A program made the translations under genes and the position numbers. Below the pieces are notes generated by a model that saw only the letters and a list, made by a program, of their open reading frames with translations, had not been told where the DNA came from and ran no database searches. From Rhodospirillaceae bacterium (GTDB lineage Bacteria; Pseudomonadota; Alphaproteobacteria; Reyranellales; Reyranellaceae), in the NCBI GenBank assembly GCA_009772935.1, contig WOUR01000020.1:62001-126000 (forward strand): a stretch of 64,000 bases of DNA, read 5' to 3'. Of this stretch, positions 8,105-53,400 are shown one piece after another. Within the stretch, counting starts at the first letter, position 1; every line of letters begins with the position of its first letter.

Positions 8105-9742
8105 GTGATTCAGGTGAAGTACCAGCGGTTTCTGGCCAGCGCGTTCGCGTCGCTCGCATCCATCGCCATCCTCGCGGGAAGCGCCACGGCGCAGACGGCG
8201 ATCACCAAGGGCGGGACGCTGATCTATCTCGAGCAGCAGCCCCACACCAACCTCTACCCGCCGGCCGGGGGCTTCTATCCCAATGGCGGCGTCCTCAACC
8301 AGATCACCGACAAGCTCACCTACCAGAATCCCAAGACGCTCGAGATCGAGCCGTGGATCGCCGAGAGCTGGACGGTCAACGCCGATGCCACCGAATACAC
8401 GTTCAAGATCCGGCCGGGCGTCACCTTCTCCGACGGCACACCGCTCGACGCCGCCGCCGTGGCCAAGAACTTCGACACCTACGGGCTCGGCAACAAGGCG
8501 CTGAAGCAGCCCGTCTCCGAGGTGATCACCAACTACAAGGGCAGCGAGGTCATCGATCCGCTGACCGTGAAGTTCTTCTTCACCAAGCCGTCGGTCGGCT
8601 TCCTGCAGGGCACCTCGGTGATCGGGTCCGGCCTGGTGTCACTGAAGACGCTGGCGCTGCCGTTCGACGCGCTGGGGGACGCCACCAAGATCATCGGCTC
8701 CGGGCCGTTCGTGGTGAAGAGCGAAGTGCTCGGCCGCGAGCTCGTGATGGAGGCGCGCAAGGACTACACGTGGGGTCCGGCCAAGCTCGCCCACCAAGGC
8801 CGTGCCAATCTCGACGGGATCAAGTATGTCGTAACGCCCGAGGACAGCGTGCGCATCGGCGCGCTGCTGGCCGGCCAGGCCAACGTCATCCGCCAGGTCC
8901 AGGCCTACGACGAGAAGCAGGTCCAGTCGAAGGGCTACATCATCTATGCCGCATCGACGCGCGGCGTGAACAACACGGTGGTGTTCCGGCCCGACAATCC
9001 CCTGGTCTCCGACATCCGCGTGCGCAAGGCGCTGCTGCACGCGACCAACGCCAAAGAGATCGTAGCTACGCTGTTCTCGGCCAACTATCCGCAGGCCAAG
9101 TCGATCATCGCCTCGACAGCGCAGGGTTACGTCGACCAGTCGGCCAGGCTCGCCTACGACCCGGCCCTGGCCGCCAAGCTGCTCGACGAAGCCGGCTGGA
9201 CGATCGGGCCCAAGGGCCTGCGCCAGAAGGATGGCAAGGAGCTGGTGCTCCAAGCCTACGAATCGCCGCCGCAGCCGCAGAACAAGGAGACCCTGCAGCT
9301 CGTCGCCCAGCAATGGGGCAAGGTCGGCGTGAAGCTGAACGTGCTGGCGGGCGATGCCGGCAGCCGCGTCGCCGACAGTCTCGATCCGATGAAGACGCCT
9401 GTCGCGCCGGCCATGGTCGGCCGCGCCGATCCCGACGTGATCCGCAGCCAATACTATCCGACAACCCGCAACGCGCTGCTGCAGAAGGGCGGCGTCAGCA
9501 ATAAGGTCCAGAGCTTCGTCGACGAGAAGCTCAACACGCTGCTCGAGGAGATTGCCGCCGCCACCGATCCCGTGAAGCGCCTGGCGCTGGTGGGAGAGGT
9601 GCAGGCCTATGTGATCGACCAGGGCTATGTGATCCCGATCTTCGAGGAGCCGCAGGCCTTCGCGGCGTCGCCGAAGGTCAAGGACTTCACCTTCGAGGCG
9701 GTCGGTCGTCCCAGCTTCTACGCCACCTGGATCGCGAAATAG
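8105..9742 (+). CDS. Peptide-type ABC transporter substrate-binding protein (family 5)
   Basis: A 545-residue periplasmic receptor of the DppA/OppA class. A signal peptide is clear: positive start, hydrophobic LASAFASLASIAILAG and cleavage after ATAQ near residue 30. The mature protein shows YTFKIRPGVTFSDGTPLDA, the family signature region near residue 125, and VRKALLHATN near 310. The start is GTG 8105, five bases after a GGGGG tract. It leads a seven-gene cassette whose later genes encode a luciferase-like monooxygenase and two AhpD-fold proteins, so the transported compound is probably a substrate for those oxidoreductases, not necessarily a peptide. It resembles the group NCBI calls SBP_KPN_01854 (from memory). 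Confidence 0.9.
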   Translation: MIQVKYQRFLASAFASLASIAILAGSATAQTAITKGGTLIYLEQQPHTNLYPPAGGFYPNGGVLNQITDKLTYQNPKTLEIEPWIAESWTVNADATEYTFKIRPGVTFSDGTPLDAAAVAKNFDTYGLGNKALKQPVSEVITNYKGSEVIDPLTVKFFFTKPSVGFLQGTSVIGSGLVSLKTLALPFDALGDATKIIGSGPFVVKSEVLGRELVMEARKDYTWGPAKLAHQGRANLDGIKYVVTPEDSVRIGALLAGQANVIRQVQAYDEKQVQSKGYIIYAASTRGVNNTVVFRPDNPLVSDIRVRKALLHATNAKEIVATLFSANYPQAKSIIASTAQGYVDQSARLAYDPALAAKLLDEAGWTIGPKGLRQKDGKELVLQAYESPPQPQNKETLQLVAQQWGKVGVKLNVLAGDAGSRVADSLDPMKTPVAPAMVGRADPDVIRSQYYPTTRNALLQKGGVSNKVQSFVDEKLNTLLEEIAAATDPVKRLALVGEVQAYVIDQGYVIPIFEEPQAFAASPKVKDFTFEAVGRPSFYATWIAK

Positions 9743-9756
9743 GCGCAGGACAGGTC

Positions 9757-10701
9757 ATGGCGAGCTACCTCCTGGGGCGGGTCGGCCAGGCGCTGGTCGT
9801 GCTGGCGCTCACCTTCACGGCCGCCTTCCTGCTGCTGCAGGTGCTGCCGGGCGACGCAATCATGATCAAGTTCATGAGCCCCGACATGGGTCTCACGGCC
9901 GACCAGATCGCCGAGATCCGCGCCTCCTACGGCGCGGATCGCCCGCTGTGGGAGCGCTATTTCACCACCGTCGGCAACTTCCTCACCGGCAATTTCGGCA
10001 TCTCGATCCAGGCGGGTGTGCCGGTGAGCCAGCAGCTTGCGACCAACCTGCCTCCAACCCTGCTGCTCGCCTCGCTGGCCTTCGTCGCAGCGCTGATCCT
10101 CACCATCATCCTGGCCACCGCCTCCAACATGGTGGGCATGGAGTGGCTGCGCGCCGGACTGCAGTCGTTGCCGTCGCTGTTCATCTCCGTGCCGGTGTTC
10201 TGGCTGGGCATCATGCTGATCCAGATCTTCTCGTTTCAGCTCGGCCTGGTGTCGGTCATCAGCCCCGGCCCGGTCGAACGGCTGGTCCTGCCTGTGCTGA
10301 CACTCGCCATCCCGATCTCCGCACCGCTGGCGCAGATCCTGATGCGCAACATCGACCAGGTACTGGCACAGCCCTTCGTCGCGGTCGCGCGGGCCAAGGG
10401 CGCCTCGCGCAGCTGGGTCCTGTGGCGGCATGTGGCGCGCAACGCCATCATGCCGACGCTGACCATCGCCGGCGTTCTGTTCGGCGAGCTTCTGGCCGGC
10501 GCGGTCGTCACTGAGGCGGTGTTTGGCCTCAGCGGCCTCGGCGGGCTCACCTACCAGGCCGTGGGCAACCACGACACCGCGGTGCTGCAGGCCATCGTCG
10601 TGATCTCCGCCCTGGCCTTCGTCACCATCAACCTGATCGTCGACCTGCTCTATCCCGTGCTCGATCCCCGGCTCGGTTCCAGATCGGGAGCGCCGGCATG
10701 A
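9757..10701 (+). CDS. ABC transporter permease, DppB-like
   Basis: A 314-residue inner-membrane permease. It has the N-terminal YLLGRVGQALVVLALTF helix and RPLWERYF segment that mark DppB-type subunits, about six transmembrane helices, and the cytoplasmic EAA loop in FVAVARAKGASRSWVLWRHV near residue 215 that contacts the ATPase. It begins 14 bases after the receptor gene and overlaps the next permease gene by four bases (ATGA). Together with the second permease and the fused ATPase it forms a complete importer. Confidence 0.92.
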   Translation: MASYLLGRVGQALVVLALTFTAAFLLLQVLPGDAIMIKFMSPDMGLTADQIAEIRASYGADRPLWERYFTTVGNFLTGNFGISIQAGVPVSQQLATNLPPTLLLASLAFVAALILTIILATASNMVGMEWLRAGLQSLPSLFISVPVFWLGIMLIQIFSFQLGLVSVISPGPVERLVLPVLTLAIPISAPLAQILMRNIDQVLAQPFVAVARAKGASRSWVLWRHVARNAIMPTLTIAGVLFGELLAGAVVTEAVFGLSGLGGLTYQAVGNHDTAVLQAIVVISALAFVTINLIVDLLYPVLDPRLGSRSGAPA

Positions 10702-11555
10702 GCGCGGAAACCGCGAGCGGCACCAGCGCCGACCTCCGGCCCGGCTGGGTCACGCGACTGAAGCGCGTGCCGGTGACGCTCCTCCTCGCCTGGACCATCG
10801 TGTTCATCGTCCTCGCCTGGGCCGCACTGCCGTCGCTCTTCACCGGCTACAGCGGCACCGAGGGCGTGCCGGGTGAGCAGCTGCGCCCGCCCAGCGCCGA
10901 GCATGTGCTGGGCACCGACGGGCTGGGCCGCGACGTCTACGCCCGCATCGTCTATGGCGCGCGGCACTCGCTGTCCGGCGCCTTCGTCGCCGTCACCGTG
11001 GGATTGATATTGGGCACGTTGCTCGGCCTGATCGCCGGCGCGCGCGGTGGCTGGACCGATGTCGTGATCATGCGTGTGGTCGATTCGATGCTGGCCGTGC
11101 CGTCGCTGCTTCTGTCCCTCAGCATCATCGTGCTGCTCGGCTTCGGTACCATCAATGTCGCCATCGCCGTCGGCGCGGTGGCAATCGCCCGATTCGCCCG
11201 GCTGGCGCGCTCCGAGGTCATGCGGGTGCGGCGCAGCGAATATGTCGAGGCCGCGTTCGGCAGCGGCGGCACCTTCTGGGCCGTCCTCTACCGCCATGTC
11301 CTCCCCAACTCGCTCACGTCGGTGATCGCACTGGCGGCGCTGCAGTTCGGCTCGGCCATCCTCGCCATCTCGACGCTCGGCTTCCTTGGCTACGGTGCGC
11401 CGCCGCCGACACCGGAATGGGGCCTGCTGATCGCCGAAGGCCGCAACTACCTGTCACGTGCCTGGTGGCTCACCGCGGCGCCCGGCCTCGTCGTCGTCCT
11501 GGTCGTGCTGTCCGCCGATCGCATCAGCAAGGCGCTGGGAAGGACTGCGCCATGA
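10698..11555 (+). CDS. ABC transporter permease, DppC-like
   Basis: A 285-residue permease of the DppC type. An N-terminal transmembrane helix (TLLLAWTIVFIVLAWAAL) is followed by the periplasmic HVLGTDGLGRDVYARIVYGAR motif near residue 70-90 that distinguishes this subunit, then five further helices and the EAA loop near EYVEAAFGSGG. It overlaps the upstream permease by ATGA and its own stop overlaps the ATPase start by ATGA, indicating tight translational coupling. It pairs with the product of the preceding gene to form the membrane channel. Confidence 0.92.
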   Translation: MSAETASGTSADLRPGWVTRLKRVPVTLLLAWTIVFIVLAWAALPSLFTGYSGTEGVPGEQLRPPSAEHVLGTDGLGRDVYARIVYGARHSLSGAFVAVTVGLILGTLLGLIAGARGGWTDVVIMRVVDSMLAVPSLLLSLSIIVLLGFGTINVAIAVGAVAIARFARLARSEVMRVRRSEYVEAAFGSGGTFWAVLYRHVLPNSLTSVIALAALQFGSAILAISTLGFLGYGAPPPTPEWGLLIAEGRNYLSRAWWLTAAPGLVVVLVVLSADRISKALGRTAP

Positions 11556-44355: not shown

Positions 44356-45132
44356 CTACGGTCGGACTGCCGGAGTTTCCAGCTTCATACCTTTCGCCCG
44401 CTCCATCAGGTAGAGTTCAAGGGCCGTGTATTCCGGCGCATCGAGCGGCCAGGCGTCGGCACGGATGCCGACGAGGCAGTTACGCAGCCGGCGCTTCAGG
44501 GAGCCAAGCGCCTGCCACTCCAGGCGGTAGATCGGATAGCCGGTGGGATGCGCCTCCGGAATAACGATGCCGGCGAGCTTCTTGCCGGCATTGTCGTCAT
44601 GGCAGATCGCGCAGGAGAGGTTGAGCTGGCCCTGACGGCGGCGATAGATTTCGGCACCCTCCCGGCGGAAGGCATCGAGGCGGGGGTCATAGGGCGGCGC
44701 GATCCGCAGGTCGCGAGACTGGTGTGCGACATAGGCGGAAAGCGCAAGCAGGTCGCGGTTCTCGGGCGGCAGTGGCTCGGCCTTCTGGTTCTCGGTGCGG
44801 CAGAGGTTGATGCGGCCCTCGAGATCGACCGGGCGGTCACCGCCCGTCGGGATTGCGGGATAGCGTGCGGCCACGCCCTTCATGCTGGCTGGAGCAGCGT
44901 CGTGGCAGTCGGCGCAGGACTTGTCAGCTGCACCGACCGCCCTTTTCCAGAGCTGGCCGCCGAGCTGGACGTACAGCATGCCGGGGTTGGCCGTATCGTC
45001 GTCCTGCATTTTCTGCAGGGCCTCGCCCATGTCCTGATAGCCGGAGCGCCGCTTGTCCGCGCCAACTTGCGCGGCCGCATAGGATGCGACGAACACCAGC
45101 GCGAGGCCGAGCGCGAGCAGCCGCCCGGTCAT
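44356..45132 (-). CDS. soxA: SoxA, diheme c-type cytochrome subunit of the SoxAX complex
   Basis: A 258-residue periplasmic cytochrome with signal peptide LLALGLALVFVASYAAAQ. Two heme-binding sites are present, CADCH (73-77) and CAICH (174-178); Cys111 in NLCRT and Cys219 in RNCLVGIRAD are the other conserved cysteines, Cys219 being the persulfurated active-site heme ligand. SoxAX couples thiosulfate, or another reduced sulfur donor, oxidatively to the SoxY cysteine. The start overlaps the soxZ stop (ATGA). It is the last of four sox genes in the order X-Y-Z-A. Confidence 0.95.
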   Translation of the reverse strand: MTGRLLALGLALVFVASYAAAQVGADKRRSGYQDMGEALQKMQDDDTANPGMLYVQLGGQLWKRAVGAADKSCADCHDAAPASMKGVAARYPAIPTGGDRPVDLEGRINLCRTENQKAEPLPPENRDLLALSAYVAHQSRDLRIAPPYDPRLDAFRREGAEIYRRRQGQLNLSCAICHDDNAGKKLAGIVIPEAHPTGYPIYRLEWQALGSLKRRLRNCLVGIRADAWPLDAPEYTALELYLMERAKGMKLETPAVRP

Positions 45133-45449
45133 TCGACGGCGATGTCGACCCGCTGCTCGGCGGCGAAGCCTTCGTCGCCGGTCCAGCGCAGCACCACCGT
45201 GCCGCTCTCCTTCGCCTCCGCGAAGAAGGACACGAAGGGATTGGCGGCGATCGCCGGCGACATGTCCATCGCGAAGATATCGGCGCCGTTCCAGGTCGCG
45301 GTGAATCGCTCGATGATGTTGCGCGGGATGATGCGGCCGTTAGGACCGGGCCGGAAGCCGGTCTCCATGGGATGCATGATCAGCGCCTTGATCTCGACGA
45401 CATCGCCGCGCCTGGCGGTCTTCGGTGCATTCACCAGGATGTTCGACAT
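45129..45449 (-). CDS. soxZ: SoxZ, partner of the sulfur carrier
   Basis: A 106-residue immunoglobulin-like protein without a signal peptide. RRGDVVEIKALIMHPMETGFR at the N terminus, PRNIIERFTATWNGADIF and FAEAKESGTVVLRWTGDEG at the C terminus match SoxZ. SoxZ forms a heterodimer with SoxY, which carries the sulfur-substrate adduct, and is exported as the complex. It overlaps soxY (TGATG) and soxA (ATGA). Confidence 0.95.
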   Translation of the reverse strand: MSNILVNAPKTARRGDVVEIKALIMHPMETGFRPGPNGRIIPRNIIERFTATWNGADIFAMDMSPAIAANPFVSFFAEAKESGTVVLRWTGDEGFAAEQRVDIAVE

Positions 45450-45892
45450 CAGGGCGACTCCTCGAGGCAGGCCGCCAGGGTCACGATCACGTCGGCACCG
45501 GCGCTCCAGAACCTTCCGTCGCTGGTCTCGGCAATGGCGACGATCCGCTGGCTGTCACCGAGCTTGATGCGCGTGCCCACGACCGCCTTGCCGCTGCGCG
45601 GCCCGAGCCGGGCAGAGAAGACGTTGGGTTGTGGGTTCTTCTCGTTGAAGACATGGATCGCCTTCACGTGGTCGGAGTCGGTCATCGGGCTCTCGACCGA
45701 AACGTTGAGCGGCACCGTGCTGCCGTTCTCGACCAGCGGCGGCACCTCGAGCTTCACCCTGCCTTCGGTCGGCGTTGCATTACCGATGACCTTCTTGATG
45801 GCCTCGGTCATGGCATCGGGCGTCGCGGCTGCAGGGCCAAGCGGCAGGACGATGATCGCGGCGGTGCCCGCAAGGAAGAGGCGTCGATCCAT
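45449..45892 (-). CDS. soxY: SoxY, sulfur-carrier protein with an atypical C terminus
   Basis: A 147-residue protein with a Tat-like signal (DRRLFLAGTAAIIVLPLG), then the SoxY core ATPTEGRVKLEVPPLVENGSTVPLNVSVESPMTDSDHVK and FSARLGPRSGKAVVGTRIKL. The sulfur-carrying cysteine is Cys142, but the canonical ending GGCGG is replaced by AACLEESP: the glycines flanking the cysteine are lost and the chain runs five residues past it. That could reduce swinging-arm flexibility or change the partner enzyme. The gene lies one base from soxX and overlaps soxZ. Confidence 0.92.
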   Translation of the reverse strand: MDRRLFLAGTAAIIVLPLGPAAATPDAMTEAIKKVIGNATPTEGRVKLEVPPLVENGSTVPLNVSVESPMTDSDHVKAIHVFNEKNPQPNVFSARLGPRSGKAVVGTRIKLGDSQRIVAIAETSDGRFWSAGADVIVTLAACLEESP

Positions 45893-46339
45893 TCAATCCT
45901 TCAACGTGACGAGATAGGCCACGACATCCTCGACCTGGGAAGCGGTGAGGATCGTCCTGCCTTCGAAGTTGCGGGCCACCCGGTGAAGGCCCTGGGCTCG
46001 ATAGTAGGCCGGCATGATCGTGTCGGCATTGAGACGCGACCCGTCGACGATACGCAGGCGCAGCTGTCCCTCCGACCAGCGCGAGCCCGCGCCGGCGAGG
46101 CTGGGCGCCAGATCGCCCTGGAAGCGCTCCTCGGCGATCGGTCCGGAATGGCAGAGCAGGCAGAGGCCGATACTGCGGTTGGCCACGATCGCCCGGCCGC
46201 GCGCCGCATCCCCCGGCCGGCCGGTGAGCGACTGGGGGATCGAATCGTCGATGACCTGCGGCACGACAGGAGGAGCGGGCTGCTGGGCCGCCGCCGAGCC
46301 GGCGACGAGTGCGAGAACGAGGAGGATCGGAAGCCGCAT
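45893..46339 (-). CDS. soxX: SoxX, monoheme c-type cytochrome
   Basis: A 148-residue periplasmic cytochrome. The signal peptide is RLPILLVLALVAGSAAAQ; the heme site is CLLCH (60-64), and PSLAGAGSRWSEGQLRLRIVDGSRLNADTIMPAYY contains the distal Met ligand. SoxX accepts electrons from SoxA. ATG 46339 follows the soxF stop by four bases; an upstream extension to 46510 lies inside soxF and is not supported. Its stop abuts the soxY start. Confidence 0.94.
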   Translation of the reverse strand: MRLPILLVLALVAGSAAAQQPAPPVVPQVIDDSIPQSLTGRPGDAARGRAIVANRSIGLCLLCHSGPIAEERFQGDLAPSLAGAGSRWSEGQLRLRIVDGSRLNADTIMPAYYRAQGLHRVARNFEGRTILTASQVEDVVAYLVTLKD

Positions 46340-46343
46340 CGCA

Positions 46344-47600
46344 TCAGCCGAAGGTTTCGGCGGTGATGGTGCGGAACCAGCTCGACGCATAGAGCGCCTC
46401 CTGCCCCCGCAGGCCCCCCACGGCTTCGAGCGGGCTGGCGCCACCGGCACCGGGAATGTCCGTGAGCTGTCTCCCGTCCGGACGATAGACGCCGGCGATC
46501 GAGATTCCATAATCGGCTGCGAGGAGGCTGTAACAAGTGTTGATCACGATCGGATCCTGCGGCTTCTCACCGGCCAGCAGCTTCACGATGGCGGCGGCAC
46601 AGACCTTGGCCTGCGCGTTGGCCGCAAAGGCCGACTTGGGCATGCCGCCCATGATCGCCGCATCGCCAAGGATATGGATGTTCGGCCGCAGCGTCGATTC
46701 GAAGGCGACCGGCTCGACCGGACACCAGCCGGTCCGGTCGGCGACGCCGGCCTGCACCGCGATGGCGCCGGCCTTCTGCGGCGGAATCACGTTGGCGACC
46801 GCGGCCTTGTGCGACCCGAACTCCGTCGTCAGGGTGAGCGTCGCGGGGTCGACCGCCGTCACCTTGCCGCCCTGGCTCAGCGGCACCCATTCGATCATGC
46901 CGGGGTAGAGCTCGGCCCAGCCGTTCTGGAACAGGCGCTGCTTGGAGAAGGCATCCTTGGAATCGAGCAGCAGCAGCTTCGACTTCGGCTTCCAGATCTT
47001 GAGCCAGTAGGCAATCAGGCTGGCGCGCTCGTATGGGCCGGGCGGGCATCGAAAAGGGTTGGCCGGCGACGACAGGACGACCAGCCCGCCATCATCCATC
47101 GCCTGCAGCTGCCGGCGCAACAGCACGGTTTGCGCGCCCGCCTTCCAGGCATGCGGCATCTTCTCAGTCGCGGCCTCGTCGTAGCCCTGGATGGCGTTCC
47201 AGGTGAAATCGATGCCGGGAGACATGACCAGCCGGTCGTAGGGAAGCCTGCTCCCGTCGACCAGGGTCACGGTCTTCGCCTCGGCATCGACTGCGGTCGC
47301 GCTCGTCTCCGCCACCGTGACGCCCGCAGCCTTGATGCCGTCGTAACGGAACTGCTGCTGGCCGATCTCGCGCAAGCTGGCCAGCACCGAATTGCTGAAG
47401 GGGCACGAGGTGTAGACGGGGTTCGGCTCGACCAGGGTGACGTCGAGCAACGGCTGCGTCGCCTTCAGGGTGCGCGCCGCCGTGGCGCCACCGAAGCCGC
47501 CACCGATCACCACGACCCTGGCCCTGCCCTGCGCCGAAACGACGGCAGGCGCAAGGCCGGCGGCCGCGCTGATCTTCAGGAAATGACGGCGCGTCGCCAT
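46344..47600 (-). CDS. soxF: SoxF/FccB, flavoprotein subunit of sulfide dehydrogenase
   Basis: A 418-residue flavoprotein of the flavocytochrome c sulfide dehydrogenase group with a Tat-type signal (ATRRHFLKISAAAG). RVVVIGGGFGGATAARTL (28-45) binds FAD, Cys66 in YTSCPFSNS and Cys356 in INTCYSLL form the redox-active pair next to the flavin, and CPPGPYERASL near 185 is conserved in FccB. It oxidises sulfide and passes electrons to a small cytochrome c, whose gene lies 13 bases upstream. The pair heads the sox genes here. Confidence 0.92.
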   Translation of the reverse strand: MATRRHFLKISAAAGLAPAVVSAQGRARVVVIGGGFGGATAARTLKATQPLLDVTLVEPNPVYTSCPFSNSVLASLREIGQQQFRYDGIKAAGVTVAETSATAVDAEAKTVTLVDGSRLPYDRLVMSPGIDFTWNAIQGYDEAATEKMPHAWKAGAQTVLLRRQLQAMDDGGLVVLSSPANPFRCPPGPYERASLIAYWLKIWKPKSKLLLLDSKDAFSKQRLFQNGWAELYPGMIEWVPLSQGGKVTAVDPATLTLTTEFGSHKAAVANVIPPQKAGAIAVQAGVADRTGWCPVEPVAFESTLRPNIHILGDAAIMGGMPKSAFAANAQAKVCAAAIVKLLAGEKPQDPIVINTCYSLLAADYGISIAGVYRPDGRQLTDIPGAGGASPLEAVGGLRGQEALYASSWFRTITAETFG

Positions 47601-47613
47601 GCCTGCTGTGTCC

Positions 47614-47907
47614 CTACTCCGGCTGCGCGGCAAACCAGGCTGCGATGGCCTCGGTCTGCTGGTCGTCGAATCCCTTGGCGATACGGCCCATCAAGCTCGA
47701 GGGCCAAGCGCCGCTGCGATAGTCACGCATGAAGGTGACGATGTCCTCGGCCTTGCGGCCGGCAAGGCGCGGGATCACCGAATCCGCCACCTTCTTCGGG
47801 GCATGGCAGCCGGTGCACGAGCTGGCGCCCGGCGGCGCATCCGCCGCCGTTGCCGGACCAGCCAGCAGGATCATGCTGGCCAAGCCCGGCAGCAGCGCTC
47901 GATGCAT
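47614..47907 (-). CDS. Small periplasmic cytochrome c (FccA/SoxE-like)
   Basis: A 97-residue class I cytochrome c. The signal peptide is HRALLPGLASMILLAGPATA; heme binds at CTGCH (31-35) and the distal Met is probably in SSLMGRIAKG. Its size and position directly upstream of soxF fit the electron-accepting partner of the sulfide dehydrogenase flavoprotein, though the molybdenum hydroxylase encoded just upstream could also donate to it. Its start overlaps the end of the hydroxylase large-subunit gene by one base. Confidence 0.9.
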   Translation of the reverse strand: MHRALLPGLASMILLAGPATAADAPPGASSCTGCHAPKKVADSVIPRLAGRKAEDIVTFMRDYRSGAWPSSLMGRIAKGFDDQQTEAIAAWFAAQPE

Positions 47908-50078
47908 CAGGCGCCCTTCTTCAGGTCGTTGTTCATCAGCGGCAGGTTGCGCACCCTCTTGCCCGTTGCCTTGGCGATCGCGTTTAGCACGGCGGGCGCC
48001 GCGACGGCGATGGTTGGCTCACCGACACCGCCCCAGAAGTCGTTGGTCGGCACGAGCACCGTTTCGACGTCGGGCATCTCGTCGATGCGCATTACGTTGT
48101 AGGTGTCGAAGTTGGTTTGCTCGACCGCACCGTCCTTGACGGTGATCTCGCCGTACAGGGCGGCCGACAGGCCGTAGACGAACGAGCCGGCGACCTGGCG
48201 GTCGATCTGCGCCGGATTGACCACGTGGCCGGGATTGGTGGCTGCCGTGATCTTGTGGATCTTGAGCTGGCCGTCGGCACTCACCGAGACCTCGGCGACA
48301 CCGGCGACGTAGCTGCCATAGCCCATGACCTGCGCGATGCCGTGGAAGCGGCCCTCGGGCAGCGGCTTGCCGTAGCCGGCCTTGTCGCAAGCGGCCTTCA
48401 GCACCGCCGCCCACTTGGGCTTCAGGTACTTGAGGCGGTAGGCCAGCGGATCCTGTCCAGCCGCCGCCGCCAGCTCGTCCATGAAGCATTCCATGTAGAC
48501 GGCGTTCTGGTTCACGTTCACACCGCGCCAGAAGCCCGCCGTGATGTGCGGGTTGCGCATGGCGTGGTCGATCATCAGGTTCGGGACGTCGTAGCCATAA
48601 GCGGCTTCGACGCCGGACTGCATGAGACCCTGAAAGGCGATCGGATCCATGCCGTTCACCAGGTTCTGCGGCAGCAGCGAGGCCAGGATCGACTGGCCGG
48701 AGAGGCGAATCTGCAGGCTGATCAGGTTGCCTTGGGCGTCGAGGCCCGCCGTCAGCTTGGCCATCGTCGTCGGATGGTACTGGCAGTGCGTCATGTCCTC
48801 TTCGCGCGACCAGATGAGCTTGATCGGCGTGCCGGGCATTTCCTTGGCAGCCAGCACCGCCTGCCGCACATAATCCGAGCGGCCGCGACGGCCGAAGCCG
48901 CCGCCCAGCATCAGCTTGTAGACCTCGCACTTGGCAACCGGCAGGCCGGCCGCTTCCGAAGCCGCGGCGAGCGCCGCCTCGCCGTTCTGAGTACCGCACC
49001 AGACCTCGCACTTGTCGGCCGTGTAGCGCGCCGTGGCATTCATCGGCTCCATCGTGACGTGGTGCTGATAGGGAAAACTATAGGTGGCCTCGACCTTCTT
49101 GGCCGCGCCGTCGATCGCCTTCTGGGCGTCGCCCGTCTTGTTGCCGACGAAGGCCTCCTTGGCCTCGAGTCCTTCCTTCAGCATGGCGTTGATCGTCTCG
49201 GTCGAGACCTTGCCGAGCTCTCCAATGTCCCAGTTGGTGTTGACGGCATCGAGCGCCGTCTTGGCCTGCCAGTAGGTATCGGCCACGACCACGACGGCAT
49301 TGCCGTCGATGGCGAAGATCTTCTTCACACCCGGCATCTTCTCGGCCTTGGCGGCGTCGAAGTCCTTGAGCTTGCCGCCGATCACCGGGCAGGCGCGCAC
49401 GGTCGCGTTGAGCAGGCCCGGCATCGTGTAGTCCATGCCATAGATCTGCTTGCCCGTGACCTTGTCGATCGTGTCGAGCCGCTTGAGCGGCTTGCCGGCG
49501 ATCTTCCAGTCCTTGGGGTCCTTGAGCTTCACGTCCTTGGGCGGCTCGAGCTGGGCCGCCGCCGCGGCGACCGCGCCGTAGGTCACAGTCTTGCCCGACG
49601 TCTTGTGCGTGATCTTGCTGTCGGCCGCGCTGCATTCGGCGACCGGCACGTTCCATTGCTTCGCCGCGGCGGCGATCAGCATCTCGCGCGCGATCGCGCC
49701 GCCCTCGCGGACATACTGCTGGCTCTCGCGGATGCCGCGGCTGCCACCGGTCGAGAAGTTCCTCCAGACGCGGTTACGCTTCAGGTTCTCGCCGGGCGTC
49801 GGATACTCCCAGGAAACCTTGTTCCAGTCGCACTCCAGTTCCTCGGCCACGAGCTGGCAGAGGCCGGTGAGCGTGCCCTGACCCATTTCGGAGCGAGCGA
49901 TGCGGATCACCACCTTGTCGTCGGGATGGATGACCACCCAGGCATTCAGCTCCTTGACCGACTGGGCGTGCGCCACGCTTTCGCCGAAGGGCAGGCGGAA
50001 GCCGAGCGAGAAGCCGCCGGCGACGGCGGCGCCGCCGACCACGAAGCCGCGACGGCCGAGAGATGTCTGGATCGTCAT
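47907..50078 (-). CDS. Molybdopterin-dependent hydroxylase large subunit (isoquinoline 1-oxidoreductase beta type)
   Basis: A 723-residue xanthine-oxidase-family protein. A Tat signal (SLGRRGFVVGGAAVAGG) places it in the periplasm. RSEMGQGTLTGLCQLVAEEL near residue 65, GGGFGRRGRSDYV near 395, PHITAGFWRGVNVNQNAVY near 515 and GGVGEPTIAVAAPAV near 685 line the Mo site; Glu687 is the catalytic base. Members hydroxylate N-heterocycles or oxidise aldehydes. This type has no FAD subunit and passes electrons through a (2Fe-2S) subunit to a cytochrome c. The small subunit gene lies 15 bases upstream and a cytochrome c gene overlaps the end. Confidence 0.9.
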   Translation of the reverse strand: MTIQTSLGRRGFVVGGAAVAGGFSLGFRLPFGESVAHAQSVKELNAWVVIHPDDKVVIRIARSEMGQGTLTGLCQLVAEELECDWNKVSWEYPTPGENLKRNRVWRNFSTGGSRGIRESQQYVREGGAIAREMLIAAAAKQWNVPVAECSAADSKITHKTSGKTVTYGAVAAAAAQLEPPKDVKLKDPKDWKIAGKPLKRLDTIDKVTGKQIYGMDYTMPGLLNATVRACPVIGGKLKDFDAAKAEKMPGVKKIFAIDGNAVVVVADTYWQAKTALDAVNTNWDIGELGKVSTETINAMLKEGLEAKEAFVGNKTGDAQKAIDGAAKKVEATYSFPYQHHVTMEPMNATARYTADKCEVWCGTQNGEAALAAASEAAGLPVAKCEVYKLMLGGGFGRRGRSDYVRQAVLAAKEMPGTPIKLIWSREEDMTHCQYHPTTMAKLTAGLDAQGNLISLQIRLSGQSILASLLPQNLVNGMDPIAFQGLMQSGVEAAYGYDVPNLMIDHAMRNPHITAGFWRGVNVNQNAVYMECFMDELAAAAGQDPLAYRLKYLKPKWAAVLKAACDKAGYGKPLPEGRFHGIAQVMGYGSYVAGVAEVSVSADGQLKIHKITAATNPGHVVNPAQIDRQVAGSFVYGLSAALYGEITVKDGAVEQTNFDTYNVMRIDEMPDVETVLVPTNDFWGGVGEPTIAVAAPAVLNAIAKATGKRVRNLPLMNNDLKKGA

Positions 50079-50093
50079 GATGCGTCCCTCCTC

Positions 50094-50543
50094 TTAGGCC
50101 TTGGCGGCGGCGTGGATGGCGGCGCGGACCTGCTGGTAGGTGCCGCAACGGCAGATGTTGGTCATCGCCTCGTCGATATCCTTATCCGTCGGATTGGCCT
50201 TGGCGGCGAGCAGCGCCGTCGCCGCCATCACCATGCCGCTCTGACAGTAGCCGCACTGAGGCACGTCGAGTTCGACCCAGGCCTTCTGGATCTTGTTCAG
50301 CATGCCGTTCTCGGCCAGCGCCTCGATGGTGACGACCTTCTGCGTACCGACGGCATTCACCGGCACGCTGCACGAACGCACCGGCGAACCATCGATATGA
50401 ACCGTGCAGGACCCGCATTGCGCGATCCCGCAGCCATACTTGGTGCCGGTCAGGCCCAGTTGTTCACGCAGCACCCAGAGTAGCGGCGTTTCCGGATCGG
50501 CAGTGTAGTCGACTGCCTTGCCGTTGACGTTGAGGACAGCCAT
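50094..50543 (-). CDS. Molybdenum hydroxylase (2Fe-2S) subunit, IorA-like
   Basis: A 149-residue iron-sulfur protein with two clusters: plant-ferredoxin type (Cys38, 43, 46, 58 in YGCGIAQCGSCTVHIDG and RSCSVP) and the C-terminal four-helix type (Cys97, 100, 131, 133 in CGYCQSGM and CRCGTY). It transfers electrons from the molybdenum subunit encoded next to it. ATG 50543 starts at the usual family position; upstream frame is unsupported. It has no own signal peptide and would travel with the Tat-exported large subunit. Confidence 0.93.
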   Translation of the reverse strand: MAVLNVNGKAVDYTADPETPLLWVLREQLGLTGTKYGCGIAQCGSCTVHIDGSPVRSCSVPVNAVGTQKVVTIEALAENGMLNKIQKAWVELDVPQCGYCQSGMVMAATALLAAKANPTDKDIDEAMTNICRCGTYQQVRAAIHAAAKA

Positions 50544-50684: not shown

Positions 50685-51743
50685 TTACAGTTTGGGCGGC
50701 GGATAGTACGGACGATCGCCGAGCGCCTGCACGCGCTTCCAAAACTCCGGACCCGAGGCCTTTCCGACCTCGTCGAGATCGGCCGCCTGGCGCCACAGGC
50801 TCCACGAGTCGGGATGCAGCCGACTCGCCTCCGCCAGTTGCAGATCGCCTTCGGCGGCGCGGCCGTTCGCGCGCAGCCAAAGCCCCAGCCGGAAACGTGC
50901 CCGCGCCTCCGCGATCTCGGGCGTGACCTTCGGCATCTCTGCGCGCACCTCGTCACCCGGCAACGCATGCGCGCCGGCGGCGACCCAGGCGCGAACCGCG
51001 TCGAGATAGGCCTGCCGTGCCGCTAGACGTTCGGCCTGGTCCTGCGGAGTCATCGTGCGCGTCGCGAGATCCATGCGCCGGAAATGATCGGTCGAGCCGG
51101 CCGTCTCGGGTGGGCGGGCGATCCGGCCCTGCTCGTCGATCCAGATCGATTGCGGCACGTTCACGAGATTATAGAGATCCTCGAGGCGATGCTCGACATC
51201 GATCAGCTGCCAATAGGACGACTTCGCCTGTTCGATCCATGGGCGGGCATGCTCGCCGCCGCGGCTTTCCTGCGCCACGGCCACGACCATGAACCCCTTG
51301 TCCTTCAGTTCTTCGTAGAGGGCCTGCCACACGGGCAAGTCGAAACGACAGCCTCACCAACTGGCCCATGTAGCAAGGAACACCTTGCGGCCGCGCAGCT
51401 GCGACAGCGAGCGCGGCACGCCTTCGAGGTCCGGCAAGGTGAAGTCGGGCGCCTCCAGCCCTTCGAGCGCGGCGTTGCGCTCCCCGGCCGACGCCCCCAA
51501 CGCCCACACGTCGCGCGTCGCGCTGCCGACGACCGGACCGCCGAGCTTCTCCCAGAAGGCCTCGAGGTCGACTTCGTTGGAACCCAGGGCGGAAGCCGGC
51601 AACGGCACGCATAGATCGTCACGGCACATGCCTTCGGGCTTCAGGGTCCAGCCGGTGATCCTCTCGGCATCGACCGGACTCATCCAGAGGCCATCATGCG
51701 CGGCGACGTCGTATTCCCCCGTAGGCGTCAGGATCTTCGTCAT
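50685..51743 (-). CDS. ResA-like thioredoxin-fold protein with in-frame TGA (probable selenoprotein, WAxxUGC type)
   Basis: Read through TGA 51354-51356, this is one frame of 353 codons from ATG 51743 (AAGGAGG nine bases upstream) to 50685, giving 352 residues with selenocysteine 130. The N part ends APDFTLPDLEGVPRSLSQLRGRKVFLATWASW and the C part starts GCRFDLPVWQALYEELKDKGFMVVAVAQE, together a thioredoxin/TlpA fold with the active site WASW-U-GC where relatives have WASWCGC. Codon use is the same on both sides and there is no second ribosome site. I recall an NCBI selenoprotein family called ResA-like WAxxUGC motif-containing protein, which fits exactly. The C-terminal third looks TPR-like. 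A SECIS-like hairpin follows the TGA. No selA, selB or selC is in the window. The alternative is a Cys-to-stop mutation. Confidence 0.8.
51323..51339 (-). promoter_or_regulatory. SECIS-like hairpin after the in-frame TGA
   Basis: On the minus strand CTTGCC (51339-51334) pairs with GGCAGG (51328-51323) around loop CGTGT; one pair is G-U. The stem begins 14 bases and the loop 20 bases after the TGA. A short stem with a small loop carrying G within its first two bases at 16-37 bases past UGA is the bacterial SECIS pattern I recall. SelB binding is inferred. Confidence 0.6.
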
Positions 51744-51765: not shown

Positions 51766-53400
51766 CTATTTCGGTGTCGAGATCGTCACTTCCTTCGAGG
51801 TGATGAACTCCAGCAGCACCGGCACACCTTTCTGGGTCTGCTCGATGCCGCGCTTGATCGCCGGGATGATGTCCTCCGGCTTGGTGATGCGCTCGCCATA
51901 GCCGCCGAAGGCGCGCGCCATGGCGGCATAGTCGCCGGAGATGTCGGTCGAACGGTACTTCTCCGTCGACACCTTCATGATGTGCAGCTCGATCGCCATC
52001 GAGAAGTTGTTGAGCAGGATCGACATGATCGGAATGCGCTCGCGCACCGCCGTCTCGAAATCCATGCCGGTGAAGCCGATGGCTGCATCGCCCCACACGT
52101 TGATGCAGAGCTTGCCGGGGCAGGCGAGCTTGGCGCCCATGGCGAGGCCGAGCCCGTAGCCCAGCTGCGTGGTCTTGCCCCAGCCGATATAGGTGTGCGG
52201 CGCCGTCGTCTTCCAGAACGGCGACAGCTGGTCGCGAGGGCTGCCCGCGTCGTGGGTGATGATCGTGTTGGCCTTGTCGACCGTGTGCTGGAGATCCCAG
52301 AGCACGCGATAGGGATTGAGCGGCGCCTCGTCGTTGGTGAGCTTGGGCATCCACTCCTTGAGCCACGCGTCGGCGATCGGCTTGATCTCCGCCACGACCG
52401 GCGCGGCATCGCGTTTCTTGCCCCCGACCAGCTTGCTGCATTCATCGATCATGGCGCGGAGCGCCAACTTCGCATCGCCGATCAGGCCGTATTGGCAGCG
52501 CACGTCCTTGTTGAGATGGTTTGGATCGAGCGTGGTGTGGATCACCGTCTTGCCCTTCGGCATCGAGATGCCGAAGTTCGTCTCGGTGAATGAGCAGCCG
52601 ACCCCGAACAGCACGTCGCACGTGTCGAGGAAGTGCCGGACCTGCCGCGGATAGGCACGACCGCCCGAGCCCAGCGACAGCGGATGGGTCTCGTCGAAGC
52701 TGCTCTTGCCCTGCAGCGAGGTGCACACGGGAATGGCCAGCAGCTCGGCAAGTTCCTTCAGCTCGTCATAGGCCTCGGCCCAGTGCACGCCGTGGCCGGC
52801 GTAGATGACGGGGCGCTTGGCCTCGACCAGCACCTTGGCGGCTTCCTTCACGGCGGCCGGATCGGGACCGTAGCGCGTCGGCTTGATCGGCTCGTAGGTC
52901 AGCGGATCGGGCGCGTCCTCGCCGTTGGCCTCCGCCGGGAACTCGATGATGACCGGCGAGCCGCGACCGTTGCGCAGCAGGCTGAAGGCCCGGCGCATGA
53001 CGTTCTCGATGTCGGCGCCCGAGGTGATCGGCTCGGCGTGCTTGGCGACATGCGCCATGGTGATGGTCGAGTTGAAGTTCGGCGGCACGTGCGCGATGCG
53101 GCGCGGATAGCCCGCCGGGATGACCAGTAGCGGTACCGATTCGCCGTAGGCCTGGGCGACGCCGCCATAGGCGTTCTCCGAGCCCGGGCCGCTCTGCATG
53201 CAGAACACGCCCATCTTGCGGCCCTTAGTCATGCGCGACATGGCGTCGGCCATGTGCAGGCCGATACGCTCCTGGCGTACGATGATCGGCCGGATGTCGA
53301 TCGCGGCGCAGTGCTCGATCAGGTGGTTGACGGGATAAGCGAAGAGATACTCGACCCCCTCGCGCTTCAGGATTTCGGCGACGGCCGGGCCGGTCTTCAT
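51766..53400 (-). CDS. Thiamine diphosphate-requiring enzyme, acetolactate synthase-like
   Basis: A 544-residue three-domain TPP enzyme. Glu44 in VRQERIGLHMADAMSR is the cofactor-activating residue; GPGSENAYGGVAQAYGESVPLLVI is the Pyr-domain core; the middle domain has VIYAGHGVHWAEA; and VWGDAAIGFTGMDFETAVRERIPIMSILLNN near 440-470 is the GDG-N (here GDA) diphosphate motif. The group is related to acetolactate synthase, glyoxylate carboligase and oxalyl-CoA decarboxylase but is usually annotated only as a TPP-requiring enzyme. Its gene lies 22 bases upstream of the selenoprotein gene in the minus-strand run. Confidence 0.88.
   Translation of the reverse strand: MKTGPAVAEILKREGVEYLFAYPVNHLIEHCAAIDIRPIIVRQERIGLHMADAMSRMTKGRKMGVFCMQSGPGSENAYGGVAQAYGESVPLLVIPAGYPRRIAHVPPNFNSTITMAHVAKHAEPITSGADIENVMRRAFSLLRNGRGSPVIIEFPAEANGEDAPDPLTYEPIKPTRYGPDPAAVKEAAKVLVEAKRPVIYAGHGVHWAEAYDELKELAELLAIPVCTSLQGKSSFDETHPLSLGSGGRAYPRQVRHFLDTCDVLFGVGCSFTETNFGISMPKGKTVIHTTLDPNHLNKDVRCQYGLIGDAKLALRAMIDECSKLVGGKKRDAAPVVAEIKPIADAWLKEWMPKLTNDEAPLNPYRVLWDLQHTVDKANTIITHDAGSPRDQLSPFWKTTAPHTYIGWGKTTQLGYGLGLAMGAKLACPGKLCINVWGDAAIGFTGMDFETAVRERIPIMSILLNNFSMAIELHIMKVSTEKYRSTDISGDYAAMARAFGGYGERITKPEDIIPAIKRGIEQTQKGVPVLLEFITSKEVTISTPK

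Follow-up and report, generated by a model that had tools for sequence, protein, structure and literature searches.

Does the TGA codon that interrupts a thioredoxin-like gene in the window, the whole 64,000-nucleotide stretch of DNA analysed here, end translation, or does it encode selenocysteine (Sec)? We conclude that this codon is almost certainly read as selenocysteine at a thioredoxin-like active site. The gene occupies positions 50685 to 51743 on the minus strand, as identified by translation with TGA read as Sec (U) and by TGA-bearing homologues. It starts at ATG 51743, with a strong ribosome-binding site (AGAAGGAGG) just 5' of the start, and runs for 352 codons to a TAA stop; its sole interruption is the TGA at residue 130 (51354 to 51356, minus strand), which gives the motif WASWUGCR. 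The initial annotation had described a frame open on both sides of this TGA with the sequence FLATWASW-U-GCRFDLP across it, and both observations were borne out, on the minus strand. Residues 1–129 (51357 to 51743, minus strand) comprise an N-terminal domain, in which Cys40 and Cys45 are invariant, plus the start of the thioredoxin fold, as seen in an alignment of 21 sequences (alignment A1) and in a search with the N-terminal domain. The thioredoxin/AhpC-TSA domain spans approximately residues 94–211 (51111 to 51464, minus strand) and was recognized by Pfam PF00578 and by Foldseek similarity to ResA. It is plausible that ordinary gene callers would truncate this gene.

Nearly all genomes in this bacterial group carry the gene, with the special codon in every copy checked at the site. 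Among the 385 class genomes, matches at E ≤ 1e-40 occurred at 25 places, spread over 22 genomes, and all 25 contained one TGA. Within the order, the gene was found in 71 of 76 genomes, including all 51 with a rated completeness of 90% or more and contamination of 5% or less, and the five genomes lacking it were one from another family (G745, 81% complete) and four others that were 60% to 85% complete. One TGA was present in 78 of the 79 places in the order, a count that did not involve reading each position one by one, and the 79th was a fragment starting past the site. TGA was also present in all 80 loci examined from named genomes (the best 80 of 472 matches), with record titles including Reyranella, Vineibacter, Desertibaculum, Acetobacteraceae, Rhodospirillaceae, Burkholderiales, and Gammaproteobacteria. 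When the motif position was read directly in 22 class loci and the 80 named loci, the codon was TGA, never TAA or TAG, at the identical place in 102 of 102 sequences (97 distinct 105-base stretches, as some class and named loci share genomes). The initial annotation had listed TGC or TGT in close relatives as grounds for abandoning a Sec reading; the relatives read at the site have TGA.

Several copies departed from the common pattern in other ways. One of the 25 class places and one of the 78 TGA-bearing places in the order also contain a TAG. The homologues with a TAG besides the Sec TGA are L069 (10001–11068), G313:C22, and G811:C18, and these may be assembly errors or decay. Two family copies occur in three class genomes (G091, G123, and G227) and in six genomes of the order (G746, G750, G758, G787, G788, and G800). 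A more divergent type (361–370 bits), with one TGA each, accounts for the second copy in both G758 and G788 and for the sole copy in G791.

Substitution patterns also indicate that the sequence past the TGA is maintained. The dN/dS ratio past the codon ranged from 0.06 to 0.26 and was below the pre-TGA value in eight of eight pairwise comparisons, which argues for purifying selection on both sides. Since the place of the TGA is kept in all sequences read and dN/dS is lower beyond it, the open frame is not a product of chance. A nonsense mutation, sequencing error, or pseudogene, with the TGA as a genuine stop and the downstream half in decay, would fit a single TGA in an otherwise open frame and a source assembly (6.0 Mb, 98.45% complete) of 124 contigs with another frame break in selB, but its probability is negligible given that all relatives read at the site share the TGA, that dN/dS past it is low, and that conservation across many genomes already refutes this reading for the family. 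We likewise consider it highly improbable that the locus encodes two proteins, a 129-residue product ending at the UGA and a 217-residue protein restarting at TTG 51338. Both open frames exist mechanically, but such a division would sever the thioredoxin fold right at the active site, the spacing between WASW and GCR is kept, and neither TAA nor TAG ever replaces the TGA.

The initial annotation placed the TGA where relatives have the first Cys of a WAxxCGC site. The assignment to the first catalytic Cys stood, whereas WAxxCGC relatives were not found. The best Cys-bearing relative of known structure, a DsbE-like protein, aligns so that WASWCG-CR of our frame faces WASWCGPCR, and UGC thus looks like CGPC minus one residue. 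By this alignment, Sec takes the place of the first catalytic Cys and C132 that of the second, with the loop shorter by one residue. The Cys-bearing relatives that we saw were generic TlpA/ResA-type proteins. We found no full-length Cys form in the class (385 genomes, at most five candidates scored per genome), in the order (76 genomes), among the best 80 of 472 named relatives, or in the order of G091 (five genomes). The same was true of the phylum (398 genomes, 22 of which had matches at E ≤ 1e-20), where two matches from the window's genus were full length with TGA and the other 20 were generic domain matches without stops. Plasmids gave no match at E ≤ 1e-15. Cys forms may exist among the weaker named relatives beyond the best 80 of 472.

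The N-terminal domain searched alone returned the same 25 class places, besides two marginal matches (G196 and G384, E 0.005–0.007) that we took as chance. A stretch resembling this domain beside a CGPC protein (L051, genome G099) was also dropped as chance; the domain search did not return that genome.

Downstream of the TGA lies the six-pair hairpin that the initial annotation reported, with a CGTGT loop, a start 14 bases past the codon, and bacterial SECIS geometry, and each of these features was confirmed. The hairpin, CUUGCC-CGUGU-GGCAGG (51323 to 51339, minus strand), has a 6-bp stem with a 5-bp conserved core, and its CGUGU loop (51329–51333, minus strand) is separated from the TGA by 20 bases. 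A figure legend in a 2026 source (PMC13188914) gives limits for bacterial SECIS elements of a 3–9 base loop, a 4–16 bp stem, a spacing of 16–37, a G among the first two loop positions, and a folding energy of −7.5 kcal/mol or lower. Checked by hand, the window hairpin falls within these limits, with a loop of 5, a stem of 6, G second and then U, a spacing of 20, and an energy of −7.7 kcal/mol for the isolated 21 bases. We rejected hairpin stability as evidence, however, because its stability does not exceed that of synonymous sequences (mean z of +0.40 over 48 bases and −0.59 over 21 bases, 30 sequences). The peptide LPVWQ by itself favours the stem, which makes the energy unremarkable: all five core pairs were retained in 44% of synonymous randomizations. 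The presence of a hairpin alone therefore proves little.

What is special about the hairpin is its codon choice, rather than its energy. Among 152 conserved columns in 90 related sequences (Met and Trp excluded), the lowest codon entropies past the UGA column itself were those of Val138, Pro137, and Gln140, and Leu136 had the lowest entropy of 18 leucines. Pro137 never used CCG (0 of 75), compared with 604 of 1018 at 12 other conserved prolines, and Leu136 used TTG in 71 of 89 sequences, compared with 165 of 1459 at 17 other leucines. Val138 was GTG in 88 of 89. Kinship among these sequences makes p-values for such contrasts look stronger than they are. The loop read CGUGU in 94 of 96 distinct related sequences, and its second base was G in all 96. 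The outer core pair was UG in 71 of the 96, CG in 20, UA in four, and unpaired in one, and covariation across the hairpin was weak, nearly absent.

The gene also co-occurs with Sec machinery. In the class, SelA was present in all 22 gene-bearing genomes and in 34 of the 363 without the gene (Fisher p = 6e-21, uncorrected for kinship). Within the order, a SelA match was found in 66 of the 71 genomes that carry the gene, that of G774 being partial and below the cut-off, and five (G750, G760, G770, G785, and G794) had the TGA gene without a SelA match; these five assemblies comprise 140–770 contigs each, and three are rated high quality. Three genomes of the order, 71% to 85% complete, had SelA without the gene. 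Near the gene itself, the sole SelA, SelB, or SelD match in the 80 named loci (best 80 of 472) was a fused pyridine reductase–SelD gene 131 bases 3' of the selenoprotein gene, in a locus titled Gammaproteobacteria (L130:11229–13457).

The initial annotation had proposed a search of the genome for the Sec genes, and the source genome yielded tRNA-Sec (selC), selA, and selD, whereas selB was found with its frame broken. The tRNA-Sec scored 71.5 bits and was confirmed by ARAGORN as tRNA-SeC, and the SelA (564.7 bits), SelD (287.9 bits), and SelB (387.9 bits) matches were above their cut-offs. The first 20 model positions of SelB lie in a different frame, and the gene (G000:C61, approximately 164480–166340; locus L159, approximately 8980–10840) has an out-of-frame gap in the GTPase domain and is spread over two frames. 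Contig C61 holds selA, selB, and selC together, with selC outside selB. Lying 5' of these three genes, from approximately G000:C61 156641 (locus L159 from approximately 1142), is a formate-dehydrogenase-like frame with an in-frame TGA in RIUHGPTVASL, apparently a second gene that relies on Sec insertion; elsewhere in the genome, a formate dehydrogenase match that scores higher (936 bits) is without an in-frame stop.

These observations bear on which residue the UGA would specify. Sequence by itself does not name the inserted residue, and UGA could be decoded as Trp or Cys by readthrough or a change of code. The Sec genes in the genome, the co-occurrence with SelA, and the freezing of codons at a SECIS-type loop all argue against such decoding, as does the ordinary use of TGA as a stop by neighbours (it terminates five of the 12 genes examined around the selenoprotein gene, the gene itself counted among the 12). 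We therefore regard Trp or Cys as a very remote prospect.

A more serious alternative is that the family encodes a selenoprotein but that the source strain has just lost Sec insertion through the broken selB, so that the UGA now acts as a stop. In relatives, selB was intact in eight of eight stretches fetched (six from the same genus and two from the same family), all taken beside selA, and ARAGORN found tRNA-Sec in seven of the eight; the eighth stretch is 3 kb and may end short. Since selB is whole in all of these relatives, the break is either an assembly error or a loss in the source strain. Assembly errors are common, dN/dS past the TGA was 0.13 against the nearest relative (L054), and the matches to tRNA-Sec, SelA, SelD, and the Sec-type formate dehydrogenase had no further break that we could see. 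We thus think it unlikely that the strain has lost the ability to insert Sec.

Taken as a whole, we hold with high confidence that this is a selenoprotein gene whose UGA130 is decoded as Sec by means of SelB and the hairpin, and whose product is a thioredoxin-like redox enzyme. The initial annotation's central proposal is thus well supported by the conserved TGA, the SECIS-like hairpin with its frozen codons, and the presence of tRNA-Sec, SelA, and SelD. At UGA130, SelB carrying Sec-tRNA would bind the hairpin just 3' through its CGUGU loop, and insertion of selenocysteine would give the 352-residue protein. A ResA/TlpA-like thioredoxin domain would sit between a family-specific N-terminal domain bearing C40 and C45 and a helical C-terminal domain. 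U130 would attack a disulfide substrate, or perhaps a peroxide one, C132 would resolve the intermediate via a selenenylsulfide, and C40 and C45 may relay electrons.

The predicted structure is consistent with this architecture. PF00578 (AhpC-TSA) matched residues 96–209 with 58.2 bits, and an AlphaFold model built from 21 sequences had a pLDDT of 92.4 and a pTM of 0.90. The best Foldseek match to ResA covered 115 columns at an rmsd of 1.3 Å with a TM-score of 0.31 by query length, and thus leaves out the N- and C-terminal domains. Columns invariant across the 21 sequences of alignment A1 include C40, C45, U130, C132, and P197. Inspection of the translation by eye found no hydrophobic N-terminal stretch or signal peptide, and on this basis the protein is probably soluble and cytosolic, unlike ResA.

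The gene neighbourhood says little about function. A TPP-dependent enzyme (51766 to 53400, minus strand; NF004807, 857.9 bits, cut-off 607) lies 22 bases 5' of the selenoprotein gene, followed upstream by a CoxE-like VWA protein, an AAA ATPase, and cytochrome b561. Downstream is a two-subunit Mo hydroxylase, with a [2Fe-2S] subunit (50094 to 50543, minus strand, start chosen by inspection; Pfam Fer2/Fer2_2) and a Mo-cofactor subunit (47907 to 50078, minus strand; Pfam MoCoBD_1/MoCoBD_2), and then a cytochrome-like protein, a flavocytochrome-c-like protein, SoxX, a SoxY relative, and SoxA. The sulfur-oxidation genes, including the flavocytochrome-c-like flavoprotein, lie at 44356–47633; SoxX scored 75.3 bits (cut-off 61), SoxA 205.5 (cut-off 110), and the SoxY-related AACIE arm protein 194.1 against TIGR04487 (cut-off 172), compared with 103.1 of the required 125 for the true SoxY model.

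The initial annotation suggested that selenium might serve a step of the TPP enzyme or Mo hydroxylase, and this idea was not supported. When 12 window genes were searched in the 80 named loci (best 80 of 472, some of them short contigs), TPP matches were found in 53 loci, with identity of only 27%–30% in three of these, and the Mo subunit in 43. Gene order was largely kept in Reyranella relatives, often with intervening genes, and lost elsewhere; because the neighbours are kept only in Reyranella and its close relatives, a functional link is unsupported. We clustered open reading frames over 30 loci (28 of the 31 loci L103–L133, plus L058 and L107), and the clusters present in at least four loci were pieces or the opposite strand of the selenoprotein gene itself and two protein groups (five and four loci) at scattered distances, 1 to 9 kb from the gene. 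No direct neighbour recurred in these 30 loci, and neither they nor the 80 named loci revealed a conserved partner gene pointing to a reaction. Of the genes directly flanking the selenoprotein gene in 26 distant loci, 10 were scanned with Pfam, which gave a TPP enzyme (two), NAD synthase, ketopantoate reductase, LysE, CoA transferase, hemerythrin, the pyridine reductase–SelD fusion, and two genes without a match.

A selenoprotein devoted to the redox chemistry or maturation of the adjacent TPP enzyme or Mo hydroxylase/Sox cluster would accord with the presence of TPP, VWA (CoxE-like), and AAA genes upstream in Reyranella relatives, and of genes for Mo hydroxylase, flavocytochrome, and SoxX on the downstream side in roughly half the 80 named loci. 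A TPP-type gene also lies 64–170 bases upstream in L116 and L122 (titled Acetobacteraceae) and L118 (titled Asaia), as named by Pfam for two of the three. However, these genes are only 27%–30% identical to that of the window, the one assigned to a subfamily falls in a different one (PRK08266), and the selenoproteins of the three loci resemble each other. Nothing recurs directly beside the gene in distant loci; L066 and L097 lack the Mo genes, and in L071 they lie 9 kb away. Such a dedicated role is therefore improbable.

Somewhat less doubtful, though still unlikely, is a stronger version of our selenoprotein reading, in which the gene is a core gene of Reyranellaceae that is obligately Sec and never Cys, has its own CxxxxC N-terminal domain confined to the selenoprotein, and performs a neighbour-independent reaction beyond the reach of Cys. 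With only the Sec codon seen in it here, and with 71 of 76 genomes in a single order carrying it, this family is well suited to studying what selenium can achieve that is beyond sulfur.

Compared with known systems, the window protein shares a thioredoxin fold and the WASW active-site context with the ResA/TlpA/DsbE oxidoreductases. ResA has a CxxC active site and an N-terminal membrane anchor; in the window protein, UGC replaces CxxC, the anchor is missing, and there are extra N- and C-terminal domains. The label "ResA-like" in the initial annotation was thus apt for the fold, as the thioredoxin domain matches ResA structures, but not for the CxxC, the membrane segment, or the ResA model NF002854 (67.5 bits, cut-off 170). 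The best family match by far was NCBIfam NF041054 (WAxxUGC_long, ResA-like WAxxUGC motif-containing protein), which aligned residues 23–351 with model positions 10–353 of 354 and has the WAxxUGC motif in common with our protein. The model matched all 21 members of alignment A1 at E ≤ 0.001, and the window protein scored 294.2 bits, under the curated cut-off of 300. Ten relatives scored from 275.4 to 464.2, with five over the cut-off (L028, L029, L030, L033, and L044) and five under, and two same-genus relatives scored 295.2 and 295.9 bits. The cut-off therefore runs through the group, and public genomes may still contain copies that are divided at the UGA. Our literature search found no mention of "WAxxUGC", and one for Reyranella with selenocysteine returned nothing related, judged by title. 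Under other names, a 2008 Global Ocean Sampling study lists a "Prx-like (UGC-containing)" selenoprotein with 855 Cys homologues in its table (PMC2398784), in contrast to the lack of a full-length Cys form in our searches, and later sources name a "UGC-containing Prx-like protein" (2022, PMC9312934) and a "UGC-containing TlpA disulfide reductase family protein" (2026, PMC13188914). Likened by domain and motif names, these entries combine an AhpC-TSA/TlpA domain with a UGC Sec motif, as here. The window protein is thus of a selenoprotein kind already described, as UGC-containing Prx-like/TlpA proteins and as NF041054, and is a borderline member of the latter by cut-off.
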